Origin: Burkholderiales bacterium
GTDB taxonomy: Bacteria; Pseudomonadota; Gammaproteobacteria; Burkholderiales; WYBJ01
Length of the DNA stretch: 64,000 bases
Direction of reading: 5' to 3'
NCBI GenBank assembly: GCA_022841915.1
Contig: JALHQN010000002.1
Coordinates: 186,001-250,000 of the forward strand
Shown here: in pieces, positions 11,324-40,566 of the stretch
Layout: each line of letters starts with the position of its first letter
Numbering within the stretch: the stretch's first letter is position 1
Notes under the pieces: generated by a model
The model's input: the letters and a program-made list of their open reading frames with translations, nothing else
Database searches by the model: none
Told to the model about the DNA's origin: nothing
Made by a program: the position numbers and the translations under genes

Positions 11324-12391
11324 ATGACCCGACCACGCAACGACACCTTCCTGCGAGCACTGCTACGTGAACCCACGCCGTACACGCCGGTGTGGATCAT
11401 GCGTCAAGCGGGTCGCTATCTGCCCGAATACAATCAGACGCGCGCGCGTGCCGGCAGCTTCATGGCCCTGTGCCGCAGCCCGGATCTGGCGACGGAAGTC
11501 ACCCTGCAGCCTCTTGCGAGGTTCGCCCTCGACGCGGCCATCGTGTTTTCCGACATCCTCACCATTCCCGACGCGATGGGCTTGGGTTTGCAGTTCGTCG
11601 AAGGTGAAGGGCCTCGTTTCGAACGGCCGTTGCGCGAAGAATGGGAGATTCGAAATCTCGCCCCCCCCGACCCGGCGGAGCACTTGGGCTACGTGCTCGA
11701 CGCGGTAGCACAGGTGCGCAAAGCCTTGGCTGGCGATATCCCGCTCATCGGCTTCTCGGGCAGCCCCTTCACCCTGGCCTGTTACATGATCGAGGGCAAA
11801 TCCGGCTCCGACTTCGCGACCGTGAAGAAGATGCTCTATCGTCGACCGGATCTGTTGCACCACATTCTAGACATCAATGCGCAGGCAGTGACGTCGTACT
11901 TGAACGCCCAGATCGAGAACGGGGCCCAAGCGCTGATGATCTTCGATACGTGGGGTGGGATCTTGTCGCACGCCGCGTACGAGCAGTTTTCGCTGAACTA
12001 CATGACCCAGATCATCTCGGGTCTGACCAAGGTCCATGAAGGCGTGCGCGTTCCCACCATCGTGTTTACCAAGGGCGGCGGCCTCTGGCTCGAGCGTATC
12101 GCAACGTCCGGGTGCGACGCAGTGGGTCTGGATTGGACGATCGACATCGGCAGCGCGCGGCAACGCGTCGGGTCCCGAGTCGGTTTGCAGGGCAATCTCG
12201 ATCCAGCCGTGATGCTCAGTTCGGCCGAGGTCATCCGATCGAGTGCAGCCGACGTGCTCGCCTCCTTCGGCGCCGGAAACGGACATGTCTTCAATCTGGG
12301 CCATGGCGTCTCTCAATTCACCCCGCCCGAGCACGTCCGAGTCTTGGTTGATGCAGTACACGAACTGAGCGCTCGATACCACGTCTCGTAG
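11324..12391 (+). CDS. hemE: Uroporphyrinogen decarboxylase
   Basis: Cofactor-free cytoplasmic enzyme that decarboxylates the four acetate side chains of uroporphyrinogen III to give coproporphyrinogen III in heme synthesis. The 355-residue length is normal. Signatures are the N-terminal [15 protein letters not shown], the catalytic-Asp segment [28 protein letters not shown], the FDTWGG loop and a C-terminal [15 protein letters not shown]. It is the last gene before a 320-base AT-rich gap and priA. Placement of hemE beside a DnaA-box-containing gap recalls the Caulobacter origin, where hemE flanks Cori. Confidence 0.98.
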
Positions 12392-12460
12392 TCGCTTGGA
12401 CGACGACCTGCCGTCCTAGAATCCCGGCCAAGGCATGTCCGAGCACTGCATGGCGGGAAG

Positions 12461-12469
12461 TTATGCACA
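12461..12469 (+). promoter_or_regulatory. DnaA-box-like 9-mer
   Basis: TTATGCACA has one mismatch from TTATCCACA. It is followed by a GC-rich stretch and then the AT-rich part of the hemE-priA gap. Confidence 0.5.
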
Positions 12470-12635
12470 GGACGCGCTCGCCTCATTTTGTATACGATAC
12501 CTATAAGCGTTTCTCGCCAATACTCTGCAAAGCATTGAAATAAATATATGTTTGCCTCTTGAATTTCGACATTGGCTTGACGATGTGCCATAGCACACCC
12601 CCATGCCTTCGGCGCTAGGGAAACCATCAACAGTT

Positions 12636-12644
12636 TTATCCACA
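12636..12644 (+). promoter_or_regulatory. Consensus DnaA box
   Basis: An exact TTATCCACA 68 bases upstream of the priA start, at the edge of the AT-rich part of the gap. Confidence 0.6.
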
Positions 12645-12711
12645 GGTCCGAGGTCTTTCCCGCCGTGACGCCCCCGGCTTCGCTCGGGGACTTTCGGCCA
12701 TTCCGCGCACC

Positions 12712-14901
12712 ATGTTTATTCAAGTCGCGATAGACGTTCCCCTGCCGACTTTGTTCGACTACCGCTGCCCGGAAGCGACAGGCGAAGATATCGGCCGGCG
12801 AGTGCGCGTGCCGTTCGGACGCAAGCGCGTGGTGGGCGTCATCCTGGCGTTGCTCGATCAGACGCCGATCGATGCGGCAAAGGTGCGCGTAGCCGGCGAG
12901 ATTCTTCGCGACATGCCCGCCGTTCCGCCCGATGTGCTGCAAGTGATGCAGTTCTGCAGCGACTATTACCACCACCCGATCGGCGAAGTGGTGTTGTCCG
13001 CATTGCCATCGCGGTTCCGCAAAACGCCCGAGCTGACCGATCGCGTACGCCTTTCGGTCGAGGTAACGGCAGCGGGACGGGCTGCGCTCCTTGCCGGTCT
13101 CAGGCGCTCGCCGTCGCTCGAACAAGTTCTGGCCAGGATATCGACGGCGGGGGTTCTCAGTGCTGAGCGCGTTGCGGCACTCCCGCCCTCGGAGCGGCGG
13201 GCCTTGAAACGGCTCCTGGAACGAGGGTGGGTCAGCGAGACGCTCAGAGCGGCCGAGCACTTGATCGATGAGGCGAGCGATTCGGTCGACAGCACGAAGC
13301 CGGAGCTCACGCAGGAGCAGCGAGCCTCAGTCGAGGCGATGTTGGCAGCGCCGCCAGGGTTCAAGACCTGGCTGCTGCACGGGATCACGGGAAGCGGCAA
13401 AACCGAGGTTTACCTGCGGGCGATGGAAACCGCACTCGAGACCAACGGCCAAGTGCTCTTTCTGGTGCCGGAGATCGGGCTGACGCCACAACTCGAATCT
13501 CGGATACGGATCCGTTTCGCCGGCCACGAGTTAGTCACTTTGCATAGCAATCTGGCGGCCGGCCAGCGCGCCGCGAACTGGCAGGCCGCCCATTCGGGGC
13601 GTGCGAGGATCGTTCTCGGAACACGATCGGCGATCTTCGCCCCTTTGCCACGGCTCGCACTGATCGTCGTCGACGAGGAACACGACGCATCCTTCAAGCA
13701 GATCGAAGGCATGAAGTATTCTGCACGCGATCTGGCGGTGTGGCGCGGGCATCAGCGCGGCATTCCCGTCATTCTGGGATCGGCGACGCCCTCACTGGAA
13801 TCGTATCAGGCCGCGCTCAGCGGGCGATATCGCATCCTGCGCCTCACGCAGCGAGCGAACGATGCGCCCATGCCGAGGATACACATGGTCGCCGTGAATG
13901 GACCGGCCGCCTCGAACGGTTTGGCGAGCCAGCTGCTCGACGCTATTCGCGCTCGAGTCCAGAATCGCGAGCAGGTCCTCGTCTTCATCAATCGACGAGG
14001 TTACGCGCCGGTGCTCGTGTGTTCTGCTTGCGCCTGGGCGCCGAGCTGTCATCGCTGCTCGGCACGCTTGGTGCTGCACAAGGCACGCTCTCGGATGGTC
14101 TGTCACCATTGCGGGCATGCCATGCCGGTGCCTGTCGCATGCGCCAGCTGCGGCAACGTCGATTTGCATCCGCTCGGCTATGGGACGCAACGGGTCGAAA
14201 CGACTCTGCGCCAAGCGCTGCCCGATGCCCGCATCTTGCGCGTCGACAGGGATACGACCCAGAGCCGAGACGCCTGGCCGCAGATGCGCAACCTGATCGA
14301 AAAGGGGGAGGTCGACGTGCTTGTCGGCACGCAGCTCCTGTCGAAGGGACACGACTTTCCGGGACTCGGGCTGGTGTGCGTCCTCAATGCCGACCAGTCT
14401 TTGTACAGCACCGACTTTCGCGCCTCGGAACAGCTGTTCGCGCAGCTGACGCAGGTCGCAGGCCGAGCCGGGCGCGGGCGCATTCCGGGCGAGGTGCTCA
14501 TCCAAACGCAGTTCCCTTCGCATCCGCTTTACCGCGCGGTCCAGGAGCACGATTACGACGGCTTCGCTCGTGTGCTTCTTGACGAACGTGCGCAGGCCGG
14601 CTTTCCTCCGTTCGTGCATCAGGCTGTCCTGCGAGCCGAGGGTACAAGCATGGAGCAGGCGTTGAATTTCCTGCGCGATGCGGCGCAGCTGGCGCAGGCG
14701 TGCGCGCACGAGGTGGAGGTCTTCGATCCCGCGCCCGCCGTGATGGAACGGCTGAAGGGAAAAGAACGCGCGCAGTTACTGGTTCAGGCACGCGCTCGTT
14801 CGCAGCTGCACGCATTCCTCGACCGCTGGGCGCAGCAACTCGCCAGCGCGCGAGCGTACGGCGCGCGCTGGGCGATCGACGTGGATCCTCTCAGTATCTG
14901 A
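12712..14901 (+). CDS. priA: Primosomal replication protein PriA (helicase)
   Basis: Superfamily 2 helicase that recognises stalled or collapsed forks and reloads DnaB. The 729-residue protein has the N-terminal 3'-DNA-binding domain (MFIQVAIDVPLPTLFDYRCP, GRRVRVPFGRKRVVG), Walker A GITGSGKTE at about 224-232, the DEEH box (about 321-324), and two zinc sites built from eight cysteines between about 437 and 480 (CSACAWAPSCHRC and later CHHCG, CASCGN). Helicase motifs V and VI are in GTQLLSKGHDFPGL and QVAGRAGRGRIPGEV. No clear Shine-Dalgarno sequence precedes the ATG. The upstream gap with DnaA boxes makes DnaA control of priA conceivable. Confidence 0.97.
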   Translation: MFIQVAIDVPLPTLFDYRCPEATGEDIGRRVRVPFGRKRVVGVILALLDQTPIDAAKVRVAGEILRDMPAVPPDVLQVMQFCSDYYHHPIGEVVLSALPSRFRKTPELTDRVRLSVEVTAAGRAALLAGLRRSPSLEQVLARISTAGVLSAERVAALPPSERRALKRLLERGWVSETLRAAEHLIDEASDSVDSTKPELTQEQRASVEAMLAAPPGFKTWLLHGITGSGKTEVYLRAMETALETNGQVLFLVPEIGLTPQLESRIRIRFAGHELVTLHSNLAAGQRAANWQAAHSGRARIVLGTRSAIFAPLPRLALIVVDEEHDASFKQIEGMKYSARDLAVWRGHQRGIPVILGSATPSLESYQAALSGRYRILRLTQRANDAPMPRIHMVAVNGPAASNGLASQLLDAIRARVQNREQVLVFINRRGYAPVLVCSACAWAPSCHRCSARLVLHKARSRMVCHHCGHAMPVPVACASCGNVDLHPLGYGTQRVETTLRQALPDARILRVDRDTTQSRDAWPQMRNLIEKGEVDVLVGTQLLSKGHDFPGLGLVCVLNADQSLYSTDFRASEQLFAQLTQVAGRAGRGRIPGEVLIQTQFPSHPLYRAVQEHDYDGFARVLLDERAQAGFPPFVHQAVLRAEGTSMEQALNFLRDAAQLAQACAHEVEVFDPAPAVMERLKGKERAQLLVQARARSQLHAFLDRWAQQLASARAYGARWAIDVDPLSI

Positions 14902-39092: not shown

Positions 39093-39106
39093 TGTGGATA
39101 ACCACA
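39093..39106. promoter_or_regulatory. DnaA box in inverted repeat upstream of dnaA
   Basis: TGTGGATAA (39093-39101) is an exact DnaA box on the minus strand. It is part of a symmetrical TGTGG-ATAA-CCACA element (39093-39106). It ends 12 bases before the candidate dnaA -10, over the -35 region, suggesting that DnaA controls its own gene. Confidence 0.75.
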
Positions 39107-39118
39107 GGTGAAAAGCGA

Positions 39119-39124
39119 TAGAAT
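39119..39124 (+). promoter_or_regulatory. Candidate dnaA -10 element
   Basis: TAGAAT 64 bases before the dnaA ATG, with the DnaA-box inverted repeat over the -35 position. No good -35 hexamer is visible. Confidence 0.4.
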
Positions 39125-39188
39125 CGACAGTCCCGCGCCACGAATCGGCCATCAGAGCCGCGCGTCACACCGAGACCCTTGTCATCCC

Positions 39189-40538
39189 ATGAGCAGCTTC
39201 TGGCGTTCCTGCCTCGAATATTTTCAGCGCGAACTGACGCCGCAGGAATTTTCCGCCTGGATCAAGCCTATTCGCTTTACCCGAACCGAAGAATCGGTTC
39301 TTCTGGAAGTACCCAATAGACTGGCATTGCGCTGGATCAAGGACACCTACCTGAGCCGGATCCAGCTGCTCGCCGACGAGCATTTCTCCACGCCCACGAC
39401 AATATCGGTGAACTTACTCCCCCGGCCTGTAGAGAGCGTCCCTACGCCGGCTCCTGCCGAACCTGCGACCCCTCGAGTTGTGTCGCCGTCGATGCAGGCG
39501 CAGTCAGCAGCGAGTGATGCGTCCCGGCTCAACCCCGCCTACACATTCGAAACTTTCGTGACGGGTCGCGCAAATCAGCTCGCGCGCGCGGCAGCGATTC
39601 AGGTCGCGGACAGTCCCGCCACCTCGTACAACCCGCTTTTCATATACGGCGGCGTCGGCCTGGGCAAGACGCACTTGCTCCATGCTGTCGGCAACCTCGT
39701 GAGGGAACGCACACCGAACGCCAAGATCCGCTATCTGCATGCCGAGCAGTATGTTTCCGACCTCGTCCGTGCTGTGCAACACCGATCGTTCGACCAGTTC
39801 AAGCGCTATTACCAATCACTCGATTTGCTGCTCATCGACGACATACAGTTCTTCGCCGATAAGAACCGAACTCAGGAAGAATTCTTTTACACTTTCAACG
39901 CCCTCCTCGAATCCCGGCGTCAAATCGTGATCACATGCGACTCCTTTCCAAAAGAGATCGCCGGGATGGAAGACCGCCTGAAGACTCGCTTCGGCTGGGG
40001 CCTCACGGTCTCTGTGGAGCCACCCGACCTCGAAATGCGGGTGGCCATTCTGCTGAAGAAGGCCGAACTCGAGAACGTCATTCTCGACCAGCCCGTGGCC
40101 TTCTTCATTGCTCAGCAAGTGCCCTCCAACGTTCGTGAACTCGAAGGGGCATTGAAGCGCGTACTGGCGTTCTGCCGGTTCTCCGGTCAACCGTTGCGCA
40201 TCGATACCTGCAAAGAAGCACTGCGCGATCTCATTGCTGTCCAGAGTCGCCAAGTAACCATCGACAATATCCAACGCACCGTTGCCGAGTACTACAAGAT
40301 CAAGGTCTCAGAAATGTACTCGAAGAAACGCAGTCGCCTGATCGCACGTCCGCGCCAGATTGCAATGGCGCTCGCCAAGGAACTCACACCTTTGAGCTTG
40401 CCCGACATTGGCGAGGCGTTCGGCGGCAGAGACCATACGACTGTACTTCACGCTTGCCGCAAAGTGGCTGAGTTGCGGACGACCAATTCAGACATTACGC
40501 GCGATTTCAACTCGCTTCTGCAAGTGTTGAGAAACTGA
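39189..40538 (+). CDS. dnaA: Chromosomal replication initiator DnaA
   Basis: AAA+ initiator that binds DnaA boxes and melts oriC. The 449-residue protein has domain I (about 1-80, SSFWRSCLEYFQRELTPQEF), a short Pro/Ala-rich linker (about 80-112), the AAA+ domain with Walker A GGVGLGKT at 154-161 and Walker B LLLIDDIQFF (about 213-222), and domain IV with the box-binding signature GRDHTTVLHACRKV near 412-425. I chose the ATG at 39189 because it yields the family N-terminus; an in-frame start at 39108 would add a 27-residue extension lying across the candidate promoter. Confidence 0.98.
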   Translation: MSSFWRSCLEYFQRELTPQEFSAWIKPIRFTRTEESVLLEVPNRLALRWIKDTYLSRIQLLADEHFSTPTTISVNLLPRPVESVPTPAPAEPATPRVVSPSMQAQSAASDASRLNPAYTFETFVTGRANQLARAAAIQVADSPATSYNPLFIYGGVGLGKTHLLHAVGNLVRERTPNAKIRYLHAEQYVSDLVRAVQHRSFDQFKRYYQSLDLLLIDDIQFFADKNRTQEEFFYTFNALLESRRQIVITCDSFPKEIAGMEDRLKTRFGWGLTVSVEPPDLEMRVAILLKKAELENVILDQPVAFFIAQQVPSNVRELEGALKRVLAFCRFSGQPLRIDTCKEALRDLIAVQSRQVTIDNIQRTVAEYYKIKVSEMYSKKRSRLIARPRQIAMALAKELTPLSLPDIGEAFGGRDHTTVLHACRKVAELRTTNSDITRDFNSLLQVLRN

Positions 40539-40557: not shown

Positions 40558-40566
40558 TGTGGATAA
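40558..40566 (-). promoter_or_regulatory. Consensus DnaA box downstream of dnaA
   Basis: An exact TTATCCACA read on the minus strand, 20 bases after the dnaA stop. Confidence 0.75.

Follow-up and report, generated by a model that had tools for sequence, protein, structure and literature searches.

A candidate datA-like DnaA–IHF control element between hemE and priA in a Burkholderiales bacterium

The intergenic region between hemE and priA in this Burkholderiales bacterium almost certainly carries a genuine DnaA–IHF element, comprising a strong DnaA box on one side of a predicted IHF site and a weak and a strong box in tandem on the other (Table 1). It is best read as a control element of the datA/DARS type, which in this genome most closely resembles datA, and by analogy with Escherichia coli datA we lean towards an inactivating role in this species. 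This reading draws on features observed here: the anatomy, orientation, spacing and conservation of the element, its origin-proximal position, a DARS-like sister copy, and genes for IHF-alpha and Hda. The window referred to throughout is the whole stretch of 64,000 nucleotides that was analysed; it lies on contig C2 of a source genome made up of 66 contigs. The genus and the family were each represented by this genome and three others.

Table 1 Features of the hemE–priA region, in window coordinates
Feature	Position	Strand	Remarks
hemE (uroporphyrinogen decarboxylase), 5′ neighbour	11324..12391	+	ORF; homologues matching by tblastn score as URO-D
Whole DnaA–IHF–DnaA module	12461..12644	+	184 bp: TTATGCACA, 58 bp, IHF site, 83 bp, weak box, 3 bp, TTATCCACA; all boxes point the same way
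Outer strong DnaA box TTATGCACA	12461..12469	+	E. coli datA box 2 slot; invariant in 4/4 genus members
IHF site, predicted	12528..12540	-	Plus strand reads CAAAGCATTGAAA, 1 mismatch against YAANNNNTTGATW; 58 bp past outer box
Weak DnaA box CCATCAACA	12624..12632	+	DARS box III / datA box 3 slot; 83 bp past IHF site
Inner strong DnaA box TTATCCACA	12636..12644	+	DARS box II slot; 95 bp past IHF site; invariant in genus
priA (replication-restart helicase; presumed name of this ORF), 3′ neighbour	12712..14901	+	ORF; homologues in 156/160 order genomes at E<=1e-100

An initial annotation of this DNA had pointed to two DnaA boxes between hemE and priA, and both were found where it had placed them, on the plus strand and each followed directly by GG. 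The gap is, as it said, AT-rich for its surroundings, with a G+C content of 0.544 within a region of roughly 0.61, and the distance to dnaA (39108–40538), put there at about 27 kb, is about 26 kb by coordinates. Exact TTATNCACA boxes occur four times in the window against 0.41 expected, a number reached in 0 of 100 shuffles, and 24 times in the 6.21 Mb of the genome. Boxes with one mismatch are present over the window at the level of chance (31 vs 33.6), so only the exact boxes stand out. The other two exact boxes of the window lie on the minus strand, just before and just after dnaA (39093–39101 and 40558–40566), and likely belong to oriC or to the control of dnaA. Within the hemE–priA gap, the weak box starts 12 bp 5′ of the inner strong box, and no box was found at 12650–12658, where an inverted box I would lie in the window copy.

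Comparison of the four genomes of the genus shows the sites preserved between spacers that have changed nearly throughout: invariant positions number 30 of 40 in the sites and 42 of 280 elsewhere (Fisher 2e-14). Seven of the nine bases of the weak box are invariant, and the invariant bases of the IHF site are its AA and TTG core. On the scale of the order, TTATGCACA followed by TTATCCACA after 160–181 bases (169–190 bp start to start) occurs in 74 of 160 genomes and 31 of 50 families, most matches sitting just upstream of priA, and the reversed pattern occurs in none of the 160.

The region upstream of priA was compared directly in 131 stretches: one from G002, and 130 from the 156 genomes of the order in which PriA was matched (26 were left out). 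Stretches were chosen roughly in hit-list order, together with about 20 genomes with diverged PriA N-termini; 12 in which the PriA start could not be placed were dropped, and 119 remain. The initial annotation had made its reading depend on boxes being kept in this gap among relatives, and two direct TTATNCACA boxes 150–200 bp apart are indeed present in 65 of the 119 regions. The full module was found in 45 and the half comprising the IHF site and inner box in 57, and neither appeared in 50 dinucleotide-shuffled sets. As searched for here, the IHF and inner-box core is absent from 62 of the 119 regions. In 12 regions the hemE–priA gap measures less than 220 bp and could not accommodate the module; in 27, no hemE was detected upstream. 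A scan for PriA by exact short peptide patterns yielded 13 loci, all from remote groups; betaproteobacteria were missed because of the exactness of the patterns.

The consensus for IHF is printed as WATCAANNNNTTR in PMC4585315, and YAANNNNTTGATW is its reverse complement. Between 69 box pairs, this consensus was matched with no mismatch in 25 and with at most one in 55, while 1380 shuffles gave 5 and 121. The fine structure was read from 75 elements, a set admitting only exact boxes and no more than one mismatch in the IHF site (two duplicate loci removed), so that the frequencies that follow are conditional on that choice: the outer box lies 57–62 bp from the IHF site in 42 elements and 68–71 bp in 33, with none at 63–67 bp; the IHF site lies 94–99 bp from the inner strong box; a direct box matching at least 6 of 8 bases stands 12 bp upstream of the inner strong box in 92%, and an inverted box of at least 6 of 8 bases stands 14 bp downstream of it in 63%. 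The two outer-spacer classes differ by about one helical turn. Of the two flanking boxes, the window copy has only the direct one, in weak form. The orientation of the IHF site matters, since the pattern of inner box and IHF site matches 62 of the 160 order genomes and only 3 of 160 when the IHF site is flipped. A single T at −32 from the inner strong box is kept in 68% of the 75 elements and in 70% of the loci from the inner-box and IHF search; the spacer is otherwise unconserved.

In E. coli, datA lies near oriC and drives hydrolysis of DnaA-bound ATP after initiation; its minimal form is 183 bp long and contains boxes 2, 3 and 7 and one IHF site, the essential boxes sharing one direction, as described in PMC5742627. 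In the datA sequence of MG1655 (locus L155) we located, in this order, a weak box (133), a strong box (145–153), an IHF site (210–222), a second strong box (307–315) and an inverted box (319–327). The spacers are 56 and 84 bp, and the span that starts with the weak box and closes with box 3 measures 183 bp. By our own assignment, made from order and length, these sites would be boxes 7, 2, the IBS, 3 and 4. The window element shares with datA (DDAH, glyVXY-queG) a single IHF site of the same orientation flanked on either side by strong boxes, an origin-proximal place, and outer, weak and strong boxes in a single direction (all plus) with no inverted box at +14. The spacing is also close, at 58 and 83 bp here (the second measured to the weak box) against 56 and 84 bp, and 184 bp in all against 183 bp. 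The two differ in locus and gene neighbours, and in the placing of the tandem: weak box 7 of datA lies on the outer side of box 2, whereas here the tandem is inner and runs weak then strong. Likewise, box 3 of datA is strong and followed by an inverted box, whereas here the box 3 slot holds a weak box, a strong box lies 12 bp on and no inverted box follows. At the position corresponding to box 7, 12 bp beyond the outer box on its 5′ side, nothing box-like was seen in the window (by eye, 1 of 8 bases agrees) or family-wide.

The core boxes of DARS1 and DARS2 read direct, 12 bp, direct, 14 bp, inverted, an arrangement that recurs as the inner module of elements in other genomes examined here. 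The inner weak and strong tandem, 12 bp apart, corresponds to DARS boxes III and II, and the IHF site lies upstream as in DARS2, with a spacing to the core about 10 bp longer than that from DARS2 IBS2. Unlike DARS, the window copy lacks the inverted box I, possesses an outer strong direct box and is origin-proximal. From this comparison of layouts, the family joins a datA-like outer arm to a DARS-like core; the window copy retains the part that is datA-like, with its boxes all running one way. The element stands outside datA (no box 7, another locus) and outside DARS (no box I) while being datA-like in design. To our knowledge, detailed work on datA is confined to E. coli and its close relatives. 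Chromosomal DnaA-box clusters that lie off oriC and restrain initiation are described for Bacillus subtilis and Streptomyces in PMC5742627 and PMC10950094, where the description likens them to datA. A full-text literature search returned no paper placing a datA-like element at priA or hemE, a weak result since “datA” is indistinguishable from “data” in such a search.

If the element works as proposed for datA, IHF would bend the DNA that separates the outer box from the inner weak/strong pair, and so bring DnaA on the two arms together head-to-tail. The likely outcome, by analogy with E. coli datA, would be stimulated hydrolysis of DnaA-bound ATP together with some titration; this would take place soon after the origin-proximal locus has been copied, and would hold back re-initiation. 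What we infer here is that the proteins bind, that the DNA loops and in which direction DnaA is affected; this direction is deduced from the absence of box I, the strength of the outer box and the closeness to the origin. The partners for such a mechanism exist, as the genome encodes IHF-alpha (C9:73303) and Hda (C1:683754), both above family cut-offs. The main facts against a uniform datA role are the 62 priA-upstream regions lacking the core and the inverted box in 20 of 35 strict priA copies, which points towards DARS.

In 15 of the 17 genomes that have a strict element, it lies no more than 12% of the chromosome away from dnaA, the exceptions being G007 (31%) and G146 (36%). These distances were worked out by hand from coordinates in a set of 22 genomes, five of which (G023, G055, G056, G096 and G143) have no strict element. 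Among genomes with the element, the distance to dnaA spans 23 kb to 1.14 Mb. The map positions given in PMC5742627 place E. coli datA at about 10% of the map from oriC and the DARS loci at about 20% and 33%.

The search for an inner box with an IHF site, positive in 62 genomes, led to two main places, the hemE–priA gap and the intergenic region between xseA and exbB/exbD, where many families carry the element. The copy at the latter place in the source genome (C18:39688–39805; L195, G000:C18:38000–41400) has its IHF site 96 bp off; besides two direct boxes that match exactly, it carries box I in inverted form, 14 bp on as in DARS. For a comparison of xseA with priA copies, both groups were picked by IHF site and inner box only, with one duplicate xseA locus dropped; eight non-priA loci matching neither gene (L216, L236, L243–L246, L249 and L252) fall outside both. 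Box I matches at least 7 of 8 bases in 18 of 20 xseA copies and in 10 of 35 priA copies (20 of 35 at 6 of 8 or better), while an exact outer box is present in 0 of 20 and 29 of 35, respectively; the Fisher values for these contrasts, 1e-5 for box I and 5e-10 for the outer box, overstate the evidence because the copies come from related species. In all five genomes measured, likewise by hand (G021, G056, G096, G141 and G143), the xseA copy lies 23–40% of the chromosome from dnaA. DARS-like sequences are described as conserved in many proteobacteria (PMC10380432), and DARS2 as conserved in beta- or gamma-proteobacteria (PMC5742627), which makes the DARS-like sister element less new than the datA-like one.

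Two further sites were seen in the source genome. A third copy (L194, G000:C2:91500–94700), with boxes at C2:93034–93054, stands beside a gene for a TctC-type receptor; it resembles the xseA copy along its length and looks like a duplication. At L197 (G000:C6:317000–320000), a perfect IHF site lies 96 bp before a TTATCCACA box at C6:318559, with no weak, inverted or outer box, and is either a degenerate copy or a product of chance.

Beyond the order, two TTATNCACA boxes flanking an IHF site at these spacings were found in 61 of 323 genomes of the class, mostly of other orders, and the reversed pattern in none. Among the matches listed, comprising 20 loci, priA lay beside or near the element in 12, two from the window's own order. 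For the loci fetched from other orders of the class, the module was next to priA in 10 of 18; elsewhere it sits with hemE and a 5-formyltetrahydrofolate (5-FTHF) cyclo-ligase gene, TatD, aroE, a HemN-like gene or HerA. The module is thus not tied to priA, which is the commonest neighbour in the loci read. At L180 and L181 (G118 and G151), the element is still beside hemE with priA not adjacent, and in L180 the cyclo-ligase gene is on its other side.

Several other explanations were weighed. The element might be a DARS-like reactivator that promotes ADP release from DnaA and favours initiation, as the weak and strong tandem at 12 bp corresponds to the DARS III–II pair and an inverted box follows 14 bp on in 20 of 35 priA copies. 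Box I is missing, however, from the window copy and its three genus relatives, the intact DARS core of this genome sits at the xseA copy (box I in 18 of 20 of that group), and the origin-proximal position is unlike that of DARS1 and DARS2; we consider reactivation by the hemE–priA element unlikely. Passive titration, in which the boxes merely hold DnaA, IHF aids binding and nothing is catalytic, would suit strong boxes that are conserved and origin-proximal, and titration of E. coli DnaA on the chromosome has been reported (PMC12371093). There are only two strong boxes here, though, and simple titration would not need so strict an IHF orientation and helical register, which makes this explanation distinctly unlikely. 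Control of priA in cis by DnaA and IHF, also raised in the initial annotation, would fit a module that stays with priA where hemE is not found upstream (for example L055, L063, L073, L090 and L102) and adjoins priA in the 10 other-order loci. It is not needed to account for the element, because the same module occurs without priA at hemE/5-FTHF cyclo-ligase (L180, L181), TatD (L178, L179), aroE (L161, L163) and xseA–exbB; nor was any promoter scored. As the main function it is most unlikely, and as a side effect it is possible.

A relic or secondary replication origin could be imagined from the DnaA boxes, the IHF site and the AT-rich middle of the gap, and hemE adjoins oriC in Caulobacter. 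This proposal gained no support: the cumulative GC skew of the window is lowest at about 41–42 kb, beside dnaA, and not at 12.5 kb, and an alternative oriC was rejected on this skew minimum and on the variable distance to dnaA given above. The box layout also differs from that of E. coli oriC, and the prospect of an origin here is very remote. A non-coding RNA of about 260 nt had been suggested from a −10-like hexamer and a small hairpin framing the stretch. The letters are there (TAGAAT and CCCCG/CGGGG), but a promoter and terminator scan found no sigma-70 promoter and no terminator, and only 1 of 18 hairpin bases is kept in the genus. Rfam gave no match at gathering thresholds or at E<=10, the predicted fold is no more stable than that of shuffled versions (z 0.23), and a structured RNA was rejected on this z-score and on the lack of spacer conservation in the genus; we give the transcript practically no credence. 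Of the initial interpretation, it is the datA-like suggestion that finds support, from the conserved IHF site, weak tandem box, fixed spacing and wide conservation, all of which it had overlooked.

The datA/DARS-type reading also bears on ancestry. We suggest, tentatively and as a possibility that is on balance doubtful, that a single DnaA–IHF module (outer box, IHF site, boxes III–II–I) gave rise to both datA and DARS2 of E. coli and was present at two loci before the betaproteobacteria and other gammaproteobacterial orders split; the origin-proximal priA copy would have become or stayed datA-like, and the mid-replichore xseA copy DARS-like. If so, paired off/on control of DnaA would be an ancient trait rather than an enterobacterial one. 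Given conservation across very distant relatives, this layer of cell-cycle control may be much older than one would gather from E. coli. An element of this design, conserved at a fixed gene across the betaproteobacteria and several other orders, would open DnaA inactivation to study in many new organisms, let evolution show which spacings are important and make the off/on ancestry of datA and DARS testable, with the priA/xseA pair offering two defined loci to delete in one organism.

Multiple copies of the module were also observed near priA. Tandem repeats lie in the hemE–priA gap of L134 (G008; two copies) and L153 (G159; two or three copies), and in two genomes of family f8 a second box–IHF–box pair is present about 1 kb farther upstream of the priA-linked one (L186, 3606–3790; L187, 3817–4000).
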